Origin: Pseudomonas synxantha
GTDB lineage: Bacteria; Pseudomonadota; Gammaproteobacteria; Pseudomonadales; Pseudomonadaceae
Assembly (NCBI RefSeq): GCF_900105675.1
Contig: NZ_LT629786.1
Span: 4,650,001 to 4,714,000 of the forward strand
Reading direction: 5' to 3'
Length of the DNA stretch: 64,000 nt
Shown here: piece by piece, positions 417 through 62,757 of the stretch
Position numbering within the stretch: position 1 is the stretch's first letter
Layout: every line of letters begins with the position of its first letter
Notes under the pieces: generated by a model
Databases searched by the model: none
Seen by the model: the letters and a program-made list of their open reading frames with translations, nothing else
Told to the model about the DNA's origin: nothing
Made by a program: the position numbers and the translations under genes

Positions 417-1868
417 ATGTCCGTCCGTCGCACCAAAATCGTCGCCACCCTTGGCCCGGCCAGCAACTCGCCGGAAGTCCTCGAACAGCTGATTCTGGCT
501 GGTTTGGACGTCGCCCGTCTGAACTTCTCCCACGGCACCCCGGACGAGCACAAGGCTCGCGCCAAGCTGGTGCGTGACCTGGCCGCCAAGCATGGCCGCT
601 TCGTTGCACTGCTGGGTGACCTGCAAGGCCCGAAAATCCGTATCGCCAAATTTGCCAACAAGCGAATCGAGCTGAAGATTGGTGACAAATTCACCTTCTC
701 CACCAGCCACCCGCTGACCGAAGGCACCCAGGACGTCGTGGGTATCGACTACCCGGACCTGGTCAAGGATTGCGGTGTCGGTGACGAACTGCTGCTGGAC
801 GATGGCCGCGTGGTCATGCGCGTCGACACCGCGACCCCGACCGAGCTGCACTGCACCGTGATCATCGGCGGCCCGCTGTCCGACCACAAAGGTATCAACC
901 GCCGCGGCGGTGGCCTGACGGCGCCAGCCCTGACTGAAAAAGACAAGGCTGACATCAAGCTCGCCGCCGAAATGGAAGTCGACTACCTCGCCGTGTCCTT
1001 CCCACGCGACGCCGCCGACATGGAATACGCCCGTAAACTGCGCGACGAAGCCGGCGGCACCGCCTGGCTGGTGGCGAAGATCGAACGCGCCGAAGCCGTG
1101 GCCGACGACGAAACCCTCGACGGCCTGATCAAGGCGTCCGACGCGGTGATGGTTGCCCGTGGCGACCTGGGTGTGGAAATTGGTGACGCCGAGCTGATCG
1201 GTATCCAGAAGAAGATCATCCTGCACGCACGCCGCCACAACAAGGCCGTGATCGTTGCGACCCAGATGATGGAGTCGATGATCCAGAACCCGATGCCGAC
1301 CCGTGCCGAAGTGTCCGACGTGGCCAACGCCGTGCTCGACTACACCGACGCCGTGATGCTCTCGGCTGAAAGTGCCGCCGGCCCGTACCCGCTGGAAGCC
1401 GTGCAGGCCATGGCGCGCATCTGCGTCGGCGCTGAAAAGCATCCGACCAGCAAGACCTCCAGCCACCGCATCGGCAAGGTCTTCGAAAGCTGCGACCAGA
1501 GCATCGCCCTGGCTGCCATGTACACTGCCAACCACTTCCCGGGCGTGAAGGCGATCATCGCCCTGACCGAAAGTGGCTATACGCCGTTAATCATGTCGCG
1601 CATCCGCTCCTCGGTGCCGATCTACGCGTTTACCCCTCACCGCGAAGCCCAGGCCCGCGCGGCGTTGTTCCGTGGTGTGTACACCATCCCGTTCGACCCG
1701 GCTTCGCTGGCACCGAACGAAGTCAGCCAGAAGGCTATCGACGAGCTGGTCAAGCGCGGCGTGGTAGAGAAAGGCGACTGGGTCATCCTCACCAAGGGCG
1801 ACAGCTACCACACCACCGGTGGCACCAATGGCATGAAGATCCTGCACGTGGGCGACCCGCAGGTCTGA
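417..1868 (+). CDS. pykA: Pyruvate kinase (type II)
   Basis: Converts phosphoenolpyruvate and ADP to pyruvate and ATP, the last step of lower glycolysis/Entner-Doudoroff in the cytoplasm. The 483-residue product has the family hallmarks: N-terminal RRTKIVATLGPAS, the substrate loop ARLNFSHG, the inserted B domain around residues 70-165, the catalytic Lys in LVAKIERAEA, the metal/active-site block VMVARGDLGVEIG and the MMESMIQNPMPTRAEVSDVANAV signature. Length fits the AMP-regulated PykA type. The ATG has a GGAG ribosome site (CAGGAGTCTGTGC). It appears monocistronic, with a strong terminator 20 bp downstream. Confidence 0.97.
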   Translation: MSVRRTKIVATLGPASNSPEVLEQLILAGLDVARLNFSHGTPDEHKARAKLVRDLAAKHGRFVALLGDLQGPKIRIAKFANKRIELKIGDKFTFSTSHPLTEGTQDVVGIDYPDLVKDCGVGDELLLDDGRVVMRVDTATPTELHCTVIIGGPLSDHKGINRRGGGLTAPALTEKDKADIKLAAEMEVDYLAVSFPRDAADMEYARKLRDEAGGTAWLVAKIERAEAVADDETLDGLIKASDAVMVARGDLGVEIGDAELIGIQKKIILHARRHNKAVIVATQMMESMIQNPMPTRAEVSDVANAVLDYTDAVMLSAESAAGPYPLEAVQAMARICVGAEKHPTSKTSSHRIGKVFESCDQSIALAAMYTANHFPGVKAIIALTESGYTPLIMSRIRSSVPIYAFTPHREAQARAALFRGVYTIPFDPASLAPNEVSQKAIDELVKRGVVEKGDWVILTKGDSYHTTGGTNGMKILHVGDPQV

Positions 1869-2000: not shown

Positions 2001-2379
2001 CGATGCGCAGCGAGCCGCCCTTGATCTTGATCTGCTTTTGATCTTGATCTTAGGCGCCCCGTCAAACCACGCTGGCCGGAATTCGACAGGGATTTGGGGG
2101 GTAAACCGGCAGGGATGCCGCTTTAGCCGCCCCGCGCCATGGATGGGGAGTGGCGGCGGCCCCCCAAATCCCTGTCGGATTACGGGCACACCGAGCCTGA
2201 GCGAGGTGCCGAGTGGTGGGGCATAAGCGTTTTGCTTACTTTTGCGCTTTTCAAAAGTGAGCCGCTGTAAAAGCGGAACCATAAGTAGCCGTTGCCCAAA
2301 TAACGGATATGTACTCGGTAAAAGTCCAACATTCTGGTCGGCTGTCAGGCCGCCATCGGGGGCAAGCCCCCTCCCACAT
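2001..2379 (+). repeat. Long structured intergenic repeat, copy A (single arm)
   Basis: This block recurs, diverged, at 28152-28517 and 62398-62757 and inverted at 61901-62222. Ordered elements: CGATGCGCAGCGAG lead; ACCACGCTGGCCG; an 18-bp perfect outer stem (2084-2101 with 2160-2177) enclosing two hairpins (about 2102-2125 and 2126-2157); GGGCACACCGAGCCTG linker; hairpin 2234-2244/2252-2262; hairpin 2262-2266/2272-2276; ATAACGGATATGTACTCGGT; and a terminal REP (2352-2379). There is no credible reading frame. The same fold is kept in the other arms by compensatory stem changes (see findings). Confidence 0.85.
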
Positions 2380-2529: not shown

Positions 2530-3279
2530 TTATCGCCGGGTGATAAACCCCGACAACGCCGCAATCGCCTCCGGCGATCTCAAGCGCTGGGTAAACAACG
2601 CCCCCTCCTCCTCGATCACCTGCCGCAACTGCTCGCGATCAACGCTTTTCATCAACTGCTTGGTGACCTGCACCGCCCCCGGCGCCAGGCTTTCAAAACG
2701 TCCGGCCATTTCTCGCGCCTTGGCCAAGGCCGCCTCGCCACTGCCCAACGCCTCGGTGGCAATCCCCCACGCTGCGGCTTGTTCGCCAGTGAACCCCTCG
2801 CCCAACAACAGTAGTTCAGCCGCCTTCGCATGTCCCAGCAACCGCGGCAGGATCAGGCTCGAGCCAAACTCCGGGCACAAACCCAGGTTAACGAACGGCA
2901 TGCGCAAGCGTGCATCGCGGCTGATATACACCAGGTCGCAATGCAGCAACAGCGTGGTGCCAATGCCCACCGCCGCTCCAGCCACGGCGGCGATCACCGG
3001 TTTGCGGCAGTTGAGCAGGCTTTTCATAAAGTGAAACGGTGGGCTGTCGAGATCGTTGGGTGGCTGTTCGAGAAAATCGCTGATGTCATTGCCGGCGGTA
3101 AAACACTCGCTGCTGCCCTGGAGCAGTACGGCGCGAATATCCGAGTCTGCATCGGCCTGTTCCAGCGCCTCGGCCAGTTGCGTATACATGGCACGGGTCA
3201 GGGCGTTTTTCTTGTCAGGGCGATTGAGCTGCAAGGTCAGCAACCCGCGTTCGCGTTGCTGCAGGATGGCGTCGGTCAT
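2530..3279 (-). CDS. Enoyl-CoA hydratase/isomerase family protein
   Basis: A 249-residue crotonase-fold enzyme, probably hydrating or isomerising an enoyl-CoA in fatty-acid or related CoA-ester breakdown. Visible signatures: LNRPDKKNALT near the N-terminus, the oxyanion-hole segment CFTAGNDISDF (about residues 59-69), KPVIAAVAGAAVGIGTT (about 93-109) and the catalytic-loop glutamate in LGLCPEFGSS (about 133-142). Only one acid is evident at the active site, which fits isomerase-like members as well as hydratases. It lies 30 bp downstream of the ferredoxin-reductase gene on the same strand, so the two are probably co-transcribed, as in P. aeruginosa (PA4330/PA4331 order). Substrate unknown. 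Confidence 0.9.
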   Translation of the reverse strand: MTDAILQQRERGLLTLQLNRPDKKNALTRAMYTQLAEALEQADADSDIRAVLLQGSSECFTAGNDISDFLEQPPNDLDSPPFHFMKSLLNCRKPVIAAVAGAAVGIGTTLLLHCDLVYISRDARLRMPFVNLGLCPEFGSSLILPRLLGHAKAAELLLLGEGFTGEQAAAWGIATEALGSGEAALAKAREMAGRFESLAPGAVQVTKQLMKSVDREQLRQVIEEEGALFTQRLRSPEAIAALSGFITRR

Positions 3280-27811: not shown

Positions 27812-28517
27812 CAATGTGGGAGGGGGCTGCGCGACAGCCCCATGTTGACGATGTGACCGGTCCGTACAAACAGCGCAAAAGTAAGCAAAACGCTCTTGCC
27901 CAACCACTCAGCACCTCGCCCAGGCTCGGTGTGCCCGTAATCCGACATTGATTTGGGGGGCCGCCTGAGATCAAAAGCACAGCGAGGCGGCCTTAGAGCC
28001 GACCTGATCGTTGAGGCGTACGCGTACCTCTGTGGGAGCGGGCTTACCCGCGATGGTCGTTAACGATGACGCGGGAGATCAGAATGAACGCGGCGCCCTC
28101 AAGTTTTTCGCGGGCAAGCCCGCTCCCACAGAAAAGCAAAGGCGCCCCAAGCGTATCCACGATGCGAAGCGAGTCGCTCTTGATCTTGATCTCAGGCGCC
28201 CCGTTAAACCACGCTGGCCGAACGCAGGCTTGAATCCGTGGGTAACCCGGCAGGACGCCGGGTTAGCCGCCCCGCGCCATGGATGGCGCGTGGCGGCGGC
28301 CCACGGATTCAAGCCGGAGAGAGGGCATGCCGAGCCTAGGCGAGGCACCGAGTGGTGGGGCGAGGACCTTTTGCTTACTTTTGGGTCCTTCCAAAAGTAA
28401 GCCGCTGTAAGAGCGGAACCAATAGCAGCCGTGACCTAAATAACGGATATGTACTCGGTCCCCCCCAACATCCTGGTTAGCTGTCAGGCCGCCATCGGGG
28501 GCAAGCCCCCTCCCACA
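27812..28517. repeat. Long structured repeat, copy B (two inverted arms, left arm deleted)
   Basis: Left arm (about 27865-27975, inverted) holds the complement of GCTTACTTTTG, the CACTCAGCACCTCGCCCAGG linker and TCCGACATTGATTTGGGGGG, then breaks. The centre (about 27975-28150) carries a REPIN of another subtype (28031-28132). The right arm (28152-28517) has a 16-bp perfect outer stem (28227-28242 with 28300-28315), inner hairpins 28242-28265 and 28266-28297, hairpin 28373-28384/28391-28402, and a terminal REP at about 28491-28517. No gene is credible across this 738-bp gap. Confidence 0.85.
28031..28132. repeat. REPIN, GTGGGAGCGGGC subtype, in centre of copy B
   Basis: TGTGGGAGCGGGCTTACCCGCG ... 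CGCGGGCAAGCCCGCTCCCACA, separated by about 55 bp. The related pair in copy C is at 62271-62370. This subtype differs from the GGAGGGGGC REPs elsewhere in the window. Confidence 0.8.
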
Positions 28518-50766: not shown

Positions 50767-50779
50767 GCCGACACACAGA

Positions 50780-50856
<77 letters not shown>

Positions 50857-50865
50857 AACATCAAG

Positions 50866-50895
50866 AAAGGCTACTCGAAAGAGTGGCCTTTTTTG
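50866..50895 (+). terminator. Terminator of first tRNA-fMet
   Basis: AAAGGCTACTC-GAAA-GAGTGGCCTTT stem followed by T-run, 10 bp after the tRNA. Confidence 0.92.
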
Positions 50896-50992
50896 TGCGC
50901 GTCTGTTTTTCATCACCCCTCTTACCAAAAACGCGCCAACGCCTTGATTTCAGGATAATTCGCACTAATTGGCCCCATCGGTGCATTAACGG

Positions 50993-51020
50993 TTGACACC
51001 TTGCCGCTGGACTGTAGAAT
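50993..51020 (+). promoter_or_regulatory. Sigma-70 promoter of second tRNA-fMet
   Basis: TTGACA (50993-50998), 16-bp spacer, TAGAAT (51015-51020), the same architecture as the first copy. Confidence 0.85.
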
Positions 51021-51032
51021 GCCGCCCACAGA

Positions 51033-51109
<77 letters not shown>

Positions 51110-51118
51110 AACATCAAA

Positions 51119-51147
51119 AAAGGCTACTCGAAAGAGTGGCCTTTTTT
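51119..51147 (+). terminator. Terminator of second tRNA-fMet
   Basis: Same AAAGGCTACTC-GAAA-GAGTGGCCTTT stem and T-run as after the first copy. Confidence 0.92.
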
Positions 51148-51388
51148 GTATCCGGTGAAAAAGTTCTCCTGAAACAATGACATGGCATCTTTCATGAAAC
51201 CGTACAGGGTTTGTAGAGTCCATCTCATTGCACGCTAGGCTCAATGCTCAAGCGCTTCCCTCTACGACCAATGGCCGCAGTCGCCCCACCCGGTGATCCG
51301 CGTTAATATTTGTAATTATTTTGTCCATAGGGATTGGTAACTTGGCTGGATACCCCCATCCTGTCGCGCACAATCCACGAGGTGATTG

Positions 51389-61851: not shown

Positions 61852-62757
61852 ACATCTTCGATGTGACACTGTCGCGCAGCAAACCAGGGAGCTTGCTCCC
61901 GTGGCGGCCTGACAGCCGAGGATGTTGGTTTTCGTCCTGGGTACATATCCGTTGTTTAGGTAACGGCCACTATGGGTTCCGCTTTTACAGCGGGTCACTT
62001 TTGAAAAGAGCCCAAAAGTAACCAAAAGGCTCTTGCCCCACCACTCGGCACCTCGCCCAGGCTCGGTGTGCCCGTAATCCGACATTGATTTGGGGGGCCG
62101 CCGCCACGCGCCATCCATGGCGCGGGGCGGCTAAACCGGCATCCCTGCCGGTTTACCCCCCAAATCCCTGTCGAATTCCGGCCAGCGTGGTTTAACGGGG
62201 CGCCTGAGATCAAAAACACAGCGAGGCGGCTTTATAGCCGACCTGAGCGTTGAAGTGTGCGCGTACCCCGTGGGAGCGGGCTTGCCCGCGAAGGTCGTTA
62301 ACGATGAGACGGGCAACCAGAAAGAACGCGGCGTTCTCAGGTTTTTCGCGAGCAAGCTCGCTCCTACGGAAAAGCAGAAGCGCCGCCAGCGTATCTGCGA
62401 TGCGCAGCGAGTCGCCTTTGATCTTGATCTCTGGCGCCCCGTTAAACCACGCTGGCCGAACGCAGGCTTGAAGCCGTGGGCAACCCGGCAGGACGCCGGG
62501 TTAGCCGTCCTGGGCCAAGGATGGCCCATGACGGCGGCCCACGGATTCAAGCCGGAGAGAGGGCACACCGAGCCTGGGCGAGGTGCCGAGTGGTGGGGCA
62601 AGAGCGTTTTGCTTACTTTGCCGCTTTTGCAAAGTGAGCCGCCGTAAGGGCGGAACCCATAGACGCCGTTACCTAAATAACGGATATGTACTCGGTCTGA
62701 TCCAACATCCTGGTCGGCTCTCAGGCCGCCATCGGGAGCAAGCCCCCTCCCATACTT
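61852..62757. repeat. Long structured repeat, copy C (complete inverted pair)
   Basis: Left arm (about 61901-62222) is inverted: a terminal ACCGGAT-type segment and TACATATCCG; the hairpin complement GTTACTTTTG; linker CACTCGGCACCTCGCCCAGG; outer stem 62080-62097/62156-62173 (two mismatches) enclosing inner hairpins. The centre (about 62223-62397) has a GTGGGAGCGGGC-type REP pair (62271-62370). Right arm (62398-62757): outer stem 62465-62480/62538-62553 (one mismatch), inner hairpins 62482-62503 and 62504-62535, hairpin 62611-62621/62629-62639, hairpin 62639-62643/62649-62653, and a terminal REP (62733-62755). Confidence 0.88.
62271..62370. repeat. REP pair in centre of copy C
   Basis: GTGGGAGCGGGCTTGCCCGCG facing CGCGAGCAAGCTCGCTCCTAC; equivalent to 28031-28132 but with a diverged right half. 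Confidence 0.7.

Follow-up and report, generated by a model that had tools for sequence, protein, structure and literature searches.

The intergenic repeat at positions 2001..2379 of the window, a stretch of 64,000 nucleotides of the Pseudomonas synxantha genome, raises the question of what kind of element it is and what its fold may do in the cell. A first-pass annotation, made from the sequence, had aligned four arms, claimed that their stems covary, read them as a structured RNA or single-stranded DNA element, and knew of no described function for the fold. All four arms (2001..2379, 28152..28517 and 62398..62757 on the plus strand, 61901..62222 on the minus strand) were found again, both in the sequence and as direct and inverted repeat families in a repeat search of the window, and each has a three-way-junction head and further hairpins. 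The set was not complete, as the repeat search also yielded a fifth, truncated inverted arm at 27868..27965(-) with a deleted head.

The copy at 2001..2379(+) is a solo arm and consists of GATCTT repeats, the head (2084..2177(+), locus L248), hairpins 3 and 4 and a 3' end with a repetitive extragenic palindromic (REP) sequence at 2351..2379(+), which belongs to a repeat family of the window and was seen at the copies listed from an alignment of 30 host-genome copies and one copy from genome G017. It lies between the convergent genes for pyruvate kinase, 417-1868(+), and enoyl-CoA hydratase, 2530-3279(-). The 18-bp outer stem 2084-2101/2160-2177 is perfect, as had been proposed; so is its type-2 counterpart in the arm at 28152. 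Otherwise the copy is partly decayed. Hairpin 1 (2103-2124(+), loop AGGGAT) had been given as TGCCGGTTT and reads in fact AAACCGGCA/TGCCGCTTT with one C.C mismatch (2106/2121). In hairpin 2 (2127-2158(+)) the reported C.T mismatch is present; a G.G (2137/2148) and a G.A (2135/2150) mismatch had been overlooked. The pairing CCAT/ATGG, which had been drawn at its tip, would leave a loop of two nucleotides, and the true loop is the hexanucleotide ATGGAT. Hairpin 3 occupies 2235..2261(+) with the stem 2235-2244/2252-2261 and one G.U pair; hairpin 4, CCGCT/AGCGG at 2262..2276(+), is terminator-like solely when read on the minus strand.

The stems that had been described as type 1 and attributed to this copy are really those of the inverted arm at 61901..62222(-), which has its head at 62080-62173, the loops AGGGAT and ATGGAT and two mismatches in the outer stem. 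This arm forms a divergent pair with the arm at 62398..62757(+) (outer stem 62465-62480/62538-62553 with one mismatch, loops AGGAC and AAGGAT); the spacer between them, 62223..62397, holds two REP-like sequences recognized by eye. The arm at 28152..28517(+) carries the type-2 outer stem (28227-28242/28300-28315) and the type-2 hairpin 1 with the 5-nt loop AGGAC, as annotated, but its hairpin 2 with the loop ATGGAT is of type 1; the GCCGTC..TGGGCCA form of hairpin 2 is confined to the arm at 62398. Since one arm mixes both sets, the two types have to be seen as reassorted modules. The window arms present two A(N)GGA hairpin loops with C-G closure per RNA, AGGGAT (two arms) or AGGAC (two arms) in hairpin 1 and ATGGAT (three arms) or AAGGAT (one arm) in hairpin 2, and many relatives have a strict AYGGAY in both loops. 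Elsewhere in the window, at 50774-51149, two near-identical tRNA genes are located inside a 123-nt direct repeat with copies 99 % alike.

The fold is not new. The Rfam covariance model RF01731 (TwoAYGGAY) matched all four head-bearing arms above its gathering score of 43 bits: 62074-62175(-) with 58.9 bits, 28220-28322(+) with 52.0 bits, 62458-62560(+) with 46.9 bits and 2068-2194(+), the copy at 2001..2379, with 46.6 bits. The repeat of the window belongs to this family, and the view that the fold lacks a described relative or function fell with these matches and with a published proposal, from 2014, that TwoAYGGAY binds CsrA (PMC4333381); work on P. putida adds indirect evidence from the cell (PMC7937890, PMC5568370). 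The table of Weinberg 2010 rates the family as a likely RNA that is unlikely to be cis-regulatory, with sources in the human gut, gamma-Proteobacteria and Clostridiales (PMC2864571). It is named among the improved structures in PMC7657543 and PMC11701678, and its loop energies are discussed in PMC11661157. The repeat heads share the three-way junction, the two GGA hairpin loops and, in some, the tandem G.A, a published TwoAYGGAY trait (PMC4333381), which occurred in hairpin 1 of 8 of the 24 heads of a genus-wide set and was absent from the window copies. The RNA motifs associated with DUF3800 were considered as relatives and dropped, as no link was found in the accessible text of the papers on them.

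Covariation was examined on these 24 divergent heads, representatives (about 86 % identity or less) of 99 distinct heads, aligned with MAFFT. The 99 heads had been selected for two GGA loops with short stems, therefore the set says nothing on loop conservation. Compensated double changes were present in 20 of 25 pairs; 113 double-change cells compared to 37.5 in shuffled alignments and 17-24 with the partner slid. A stricter count, without the loop-adjacent pairs that head selection itself had required, retained 13 of 16 pairs and 90 cells versus 33.5 shuffled and 11-17 slid, and in this count further pair types were no more numerous than in the shuffles (123 of 500). RNAalifold alone predicted 14 pairs, 11 of them with double changes. 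The claimed covariation of the stems was thereby confirmed beyond chance, and the constraint on a structured element is supported across the genus. The first-pass annotation had named missing covariation in a large alignment, or related copies with stems that do not pair, as grounds to abandon its reading; neither arose in the genus-wide set, where covariation exceeded shuffled and slid controls by these counts rather than by R-scape, though the copy at 2001..2379 itself has unpaired stem positions. Mismatches were distributed unequally between the strands, with G.U in 19 versus A.C in 8 cells and G.A in 34 versus C.T in 13 cells of the 24 heads, which leans towards a sense-strand RNA. Columns 38/58 of hairpin 2 were unpaired in 16 of the 24 heads, 12 of them C.U, and the neighbouring columns covary. 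It is nearly certain that the repeat encodes a structured RNA.

For the loops, arms were picked by their downstream DNA, blind to the loops, and yielded 42 arms at 30 loci in 29 genomes. As we read the folds that were printed, GGA was present in both loops of every TwoAYGGAY head (38/38), with T, G, A or no base in the second position; the remaining four arms comprised three with another three-hairpin head without GGA loops and one headless arm. Such a different head, with three hairpins, no GGA and the same outer stem, was observed in L294(+), L296(-), L299(+) and the right arm of L089; head modules seem to have been exchanged. Most loops have the form C-A(N)GGAY-G, and their spacing was 22 nt in 143 of 159 head pairs. 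Four of 24 loci in other genomes of the class (L308, L311, L312, L313) had ACGAC in place of AGGAC in hairpin 2, a loss of GGA by one base. Within the host genome, 30 arms were collected by downstream DNA (40 of 98 candidates scored), of which L261 was dropped for want of hairpin 1; among the 29 copies both GGA were intact in 25 and one was lost in four. Divergence between these copies was 0.7 % in the head stems, 4.5 % in the loops and 9-10 % in the flanks, so the head is conserved far above its surroundings. The loops varied more than the stems, with off-majority cells at 8 of 348 loop versus 6 of 1,682 head-stem positions, a result against tight selection for Rsm binding on each copy.

The repeat is abundant and widespread. 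At least 69 RF01731 matches, all above the cutoff, were present in the host genome (6.84 Mb, one contig), a floor, as 150 of 294 candidates were scored. Matches occurred in 21 of 57 relatives (G000 included) and, with ten candidates scored per genome, in 173 of 249 genomes of a genus sample, 153 of these above the cutoff. Two P. putida-group sets, which overlap (G124 equals G286 and G178 equals G277 in contig coordinates), had matches in 5 of 6 and in 18 of 21 genomes, 14 of the 21 above the cutoff. In the class sample 24 of 369 genomes matched (16 above the cutoff), G000 included, hence 23 of 368 others; nine other class genomes with seven family labels had six to seven matches among the seven candidates scored in each. 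Other families of the class thus also have heads with GGA loops; the 14 control genomes gave no match. One locus of another family of the order (L047, genome G040) had a single TwoAYGGAY match within a very long stem and is possibly an ancestral single-copy form. On mobile replicons the repeat was rare: two queries each matched one of 72,556 plasmid records, and two of 50,697 phage records gave a match. In the 11.9-kb record of Pseudomonas phage SC_10_H1H2H8_2017 (MT121968.1, 5305-5442) the head region was 95.7 % identical, either host DNA or a transfer.

The order within an arm was constant, hexamer repeats, head, hairpin 3 and hairpin 4. The arrangement of the arms differed: host-genome arms stand single or in divergent pairs, and many of the copies listed have, by eye, REP sequences at their ends on both sides, which hints at a mobilisation of the REP type. 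The P. putida-group copies printed are palindromes of two convergent arms, bounded by hexamer arrays, with REPs only further out in some. L111 and L113 are palindromes of 598 bp, the arms of which are 91.7 % complementary; the corresponding lengths in L232, L233 and L238 are 639, 782 and 722 bp. Some draft contigs end at the repeat, judged by hexamer ends (L120, L121, L132). In L006 (1831-2721) and L012 (1838-2118) the 3' end of the arm, with its REP, is repeated in tandem with a period of about 71 bp. Several insertions were found in the repeat: IS481-family elements in L017 and L021, at almost identical sites in hairpin 3 and with the same translation, other rve-type elements in L228, L229 and L230, and, by eye only, an IS256-like element in L107. 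The rve-type assignment rests on a Pfam run with three insertion proteins (L017, L228, L230), and L229 was judged by its likeness to L228 by eye. The loci L228 and L230 lie beside tusA-pdxB genes, presumably as PP_2114 does in P. putida KT2440. The insertion sequences were rejected as parent element, since those of L017, L021, L228, L229 and L230 interrupt the repeat, which looks like a landing site for several kinds of insertion sequence.

These observations bear on the reading that the arms are transposition signals. A transposase acting in trans, of REP type or another, would need the stems as hairpins of single-stranded DNA and recognise the bases of the loops, and RNA and Rsm binding would be incidental. 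The high copy number, the intergenic position, the palindromic pairing and the REPs on both sides of many host-genome copies suit it, as do stems that are better conserved than loops in that genome. Among the loci examined, however, no transposase was linked to intact copies; the hexamer-array ends of the P. putida-group copies, the recurrence of GGA-loop heads in other families and the excess of G.U and G.A on one strand also argue against it. We consider this reading unlikely.

An RNA source was sought in the surroundings of the repeat. No sigma-70 promoter was detected in 1860-2540. GacA acts through an upstream box, TGTAAG-N6-CTTACA; with this pattern and up to three mismatches eight sites were found in the window versus 9.3 expected, none inside the four arms, and one GacA-box-like site (28031-28048) falls between the truncated arm and the arm at 28152. 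In 24 of 30 host-genome copies the upstream gene reads toward the head in the sense direction. The neighbours were counted with a home-made ORF filter that left two of the 30 copies without a right-hand gene; of the 28 copies for which both neighbours could be classified, 17 are located between convergent genes, and tandem contexts (6 versus 4) revealed no strand preference. With upstream genes reading in, no promoter found and no GacA box beyond chance, read-through is the likeliest source of the RNA. The convergent setting is also what a REP- or BIME-like 3'-end element would show, whose hairpins end or protect the transcripts of convergent genes and whose loops are of little weight; the tail-to-tail bias of the largest P. 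fluorescens repeat families points the same way (Silby 2009, PMC2718517). Such a role leaves the retention of GGA during stem replacement unexplained, and the terminator score of the copy at 2001..2379 was positive on one strand only, with 1 found versus 0.8 expected, so that we regard it as improbable. That the covariation is a functionless mutational by-product, with template switching correcting imperfect palindromes, would suit the block-like replacement of whole stems between copies and the nearly identical head stems within the host genome, but correction would erase the mismatch kept at columns 38/58 in 16 of 24 heads and does not account for GGA loops retained in arms picked blind to them, which makes it very improbable.

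A role in Rsm binding is suggested by the loops themselves. The Rsm/CsrA consensus is RUACARGGAUGU in hairpin loops (PMC7937890), the form C-A(N)GGAY-G fits it, and binding of Rsm/CsrA is proposed on this ground. Published work on P. putida KT2440 can be connected to the repeat. In 2017, RsmA-regulating sRNAs were predicted beside ISPpu8 copies at PP_1864/65/66, asd/PP_1990, PP_2113/14/15 and PP_2218/19, and as a convergent pair at PP_3547/48 (PMC5568370); the accessible text has no mention of TwoAYGGAY or of a transposase. A pull-down of 2021 with tagged, over-expressed Rsm proteins gave as targets common to RsmA, RsmE and RsmI PP_1865, PP_2114, PP_4318 (ISPpu8 and intergenic region) and a 'long palindromic region downstream PP_3547'; its intergenic targets adjoin ISPpu8 copies or share sequence identity with ISPpu8 flanks (PMC7937890). 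Three of the predicted sites, PP_1864/65/66, PP_2113/14/15 and PP_3547/48, match regions pulled down with RsmA, RsmE and RsmI alike. PP_1990 is missing from the common-target table and PP_4318 from the prediction table, as far as the accessible parts of both papers go (PMC7937890, PMC5568370), and no mention of the repeats was found in the accessible part of PMC7366521.

The asd/PP_1990 site is the sole one tied to relatives by gene-order homology. In G078 the order is asd, repeat, asd-like gene and fimV. A DNA search for the asd-asd interval covered 398 genomes, of which 389 were scored, and 30 loci were examined: convergent head pairs lie in this interval in G078, G093 and G166, P. pudica (L119) and P. 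inefficax (L120, at a contig edge) have one head each there, L145 and L150 have divergent heads below the Rfam cutoff, and the P. ceruminis locus (L130) has a palindrome whose hairpin 2 is decayed, with, by eye, the loop AGGAG. Among 60 named loci with a measurable gap, its size was up to 310 bp in 46 (minimum 108), 311-600 bp in five and larger in nine; of ten named loci with a filled or broken gap, two matched RF01731 above the cutoff. The spacing agrees as well: the PP_3547 pair of KT2440 spans 594 bp and two palindromes of G078 598 bp, a fit and not a proof, as the five printed palindromes vary from 598 to 782 bp. ISPpu8 is an IS4-family element of 1,419 bp with six copies, 1990 among them (PMC3056050). 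The two ISPpu8-flanked KT2440 pairs span 2,000 and 2,019 bp, hence 1,406 and 1,425 bp more, close to the length of ISPpu8, and the same palindrome is interrupted by other insertion sequences in relatives. Taken together, the position in the asd-asd gap, the spacing and the insertions make it likely that the Rsm-bound regions of KT2440 are these repeats, an identification by position, spacing and shared ISPpu8 flanks only. The distribution of the regulator adds little, as CsrA is common: it was present in all 26 match-bearing genomes tested versus 313 of 369 in the class sample, and in 23 of 23 match-bearing class genomes other than G000 (P = 0.02). Binding of Rsm proteins to the repeat RNA is probable.

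We therefore favour, as the probable explanation, a high-copy intergenic repeat that carries a TwoAYGGAY RNA, is transcribed by read-through, binds Rsm and may act as a dispersed sponge. Each arm would be one copy of this repeat, which is probably mobile, and its RNA would be made by read-through from the upstream gene. Folded as a three-way junction of a long outer stem and two hairpins, the RNA would offer two loops C-A(N)GGAY-G, about 22 nt apart, to Rsm/CsrA, and a single Rsm dimer could bridge both. With many copies, Rsm would be sponged at a low level from dispersed sites, and it would also be anchored at the 3' ends of adjacent transcripts. More tentatively, and as a possibility to which we give less credit, an Rsm/CsrA-binding RNA may have been captured by mobile or formerly mobile repeats, or these may have evolved as such an RNA; they would then have spread across most species of Pseudomonas and, independently, risen to several copies in further families of the class, and the amount of free Rsm would be set by their copy number and read-through. 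In that case selfish DNA would have spread the sponge of a regulator. In Pseudomonas, secondary metabolism, biofilm formation and interaction with hosts are under the control of the Gac/Rsm network, for which the usual models include a few sponge sRNAs. With at least 69 copies, and both GGA intact in 25 of 29 sampled, the Rsm stoichiometry would change if even a few were transcribed. Under the favoured explanation, an orphan Rfam family and a class of repeats on record since 2009 would both gain a candidate function, and the published Rsm pull-down data can be re-read at once for these repeats.

Known systems share parts of this picture. The RNAs RsmX, RsmY and RsmZ, and likewise CsrB and CsrC, offer several GGA hairpins to Rsm/CsrA from dedicated, Gac-controlled sRNA genes; the repeat likewise has GGA hairpins, but it is present in many copies and no GacA box was found in the window arms. 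Each component has been published on its own: the TwoAYGGAY family, the proposal of CsrA binding, the sRNA predictions and the pull-down in KT2440, and the P. fluorescens repeats. In the open-licence papers searched we found no work that joins TwoAYGGAY, the KT2440 sRNA predictions and the Rsm pull-down, and no description of TwoAYGGAY as a genus-wide high-copy repeat; a high-copy interspersed repeat is absent from the accessible text of the description by Weinberg 2010 (PMC2864571). The predicted RsmA-regulating sRNAs of KT2440, treated there as sRNA genes (PMC5568370), are probably the same elements by the asd/PP_1990 position and the spacing. Among the P. fluorescens repeats, R200 of Silby has 320 bp and 47 copies in SBW25, similar in size and copy number when compared by description, and a tail-to-tail placement was reported for the largest repeat families (PMC2718517). 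With REPINs and BIMEs, host-genome copies share the REP sequences at their ends, and inverted REPs flanking the unit, a REPIN feature, were seen by eye in many of the host-genome copies listed and not at the P. putida-group ends printed, which are hexamer arrays. Compared to these elements, the repeat is far longer and carries a conserved RNA head.
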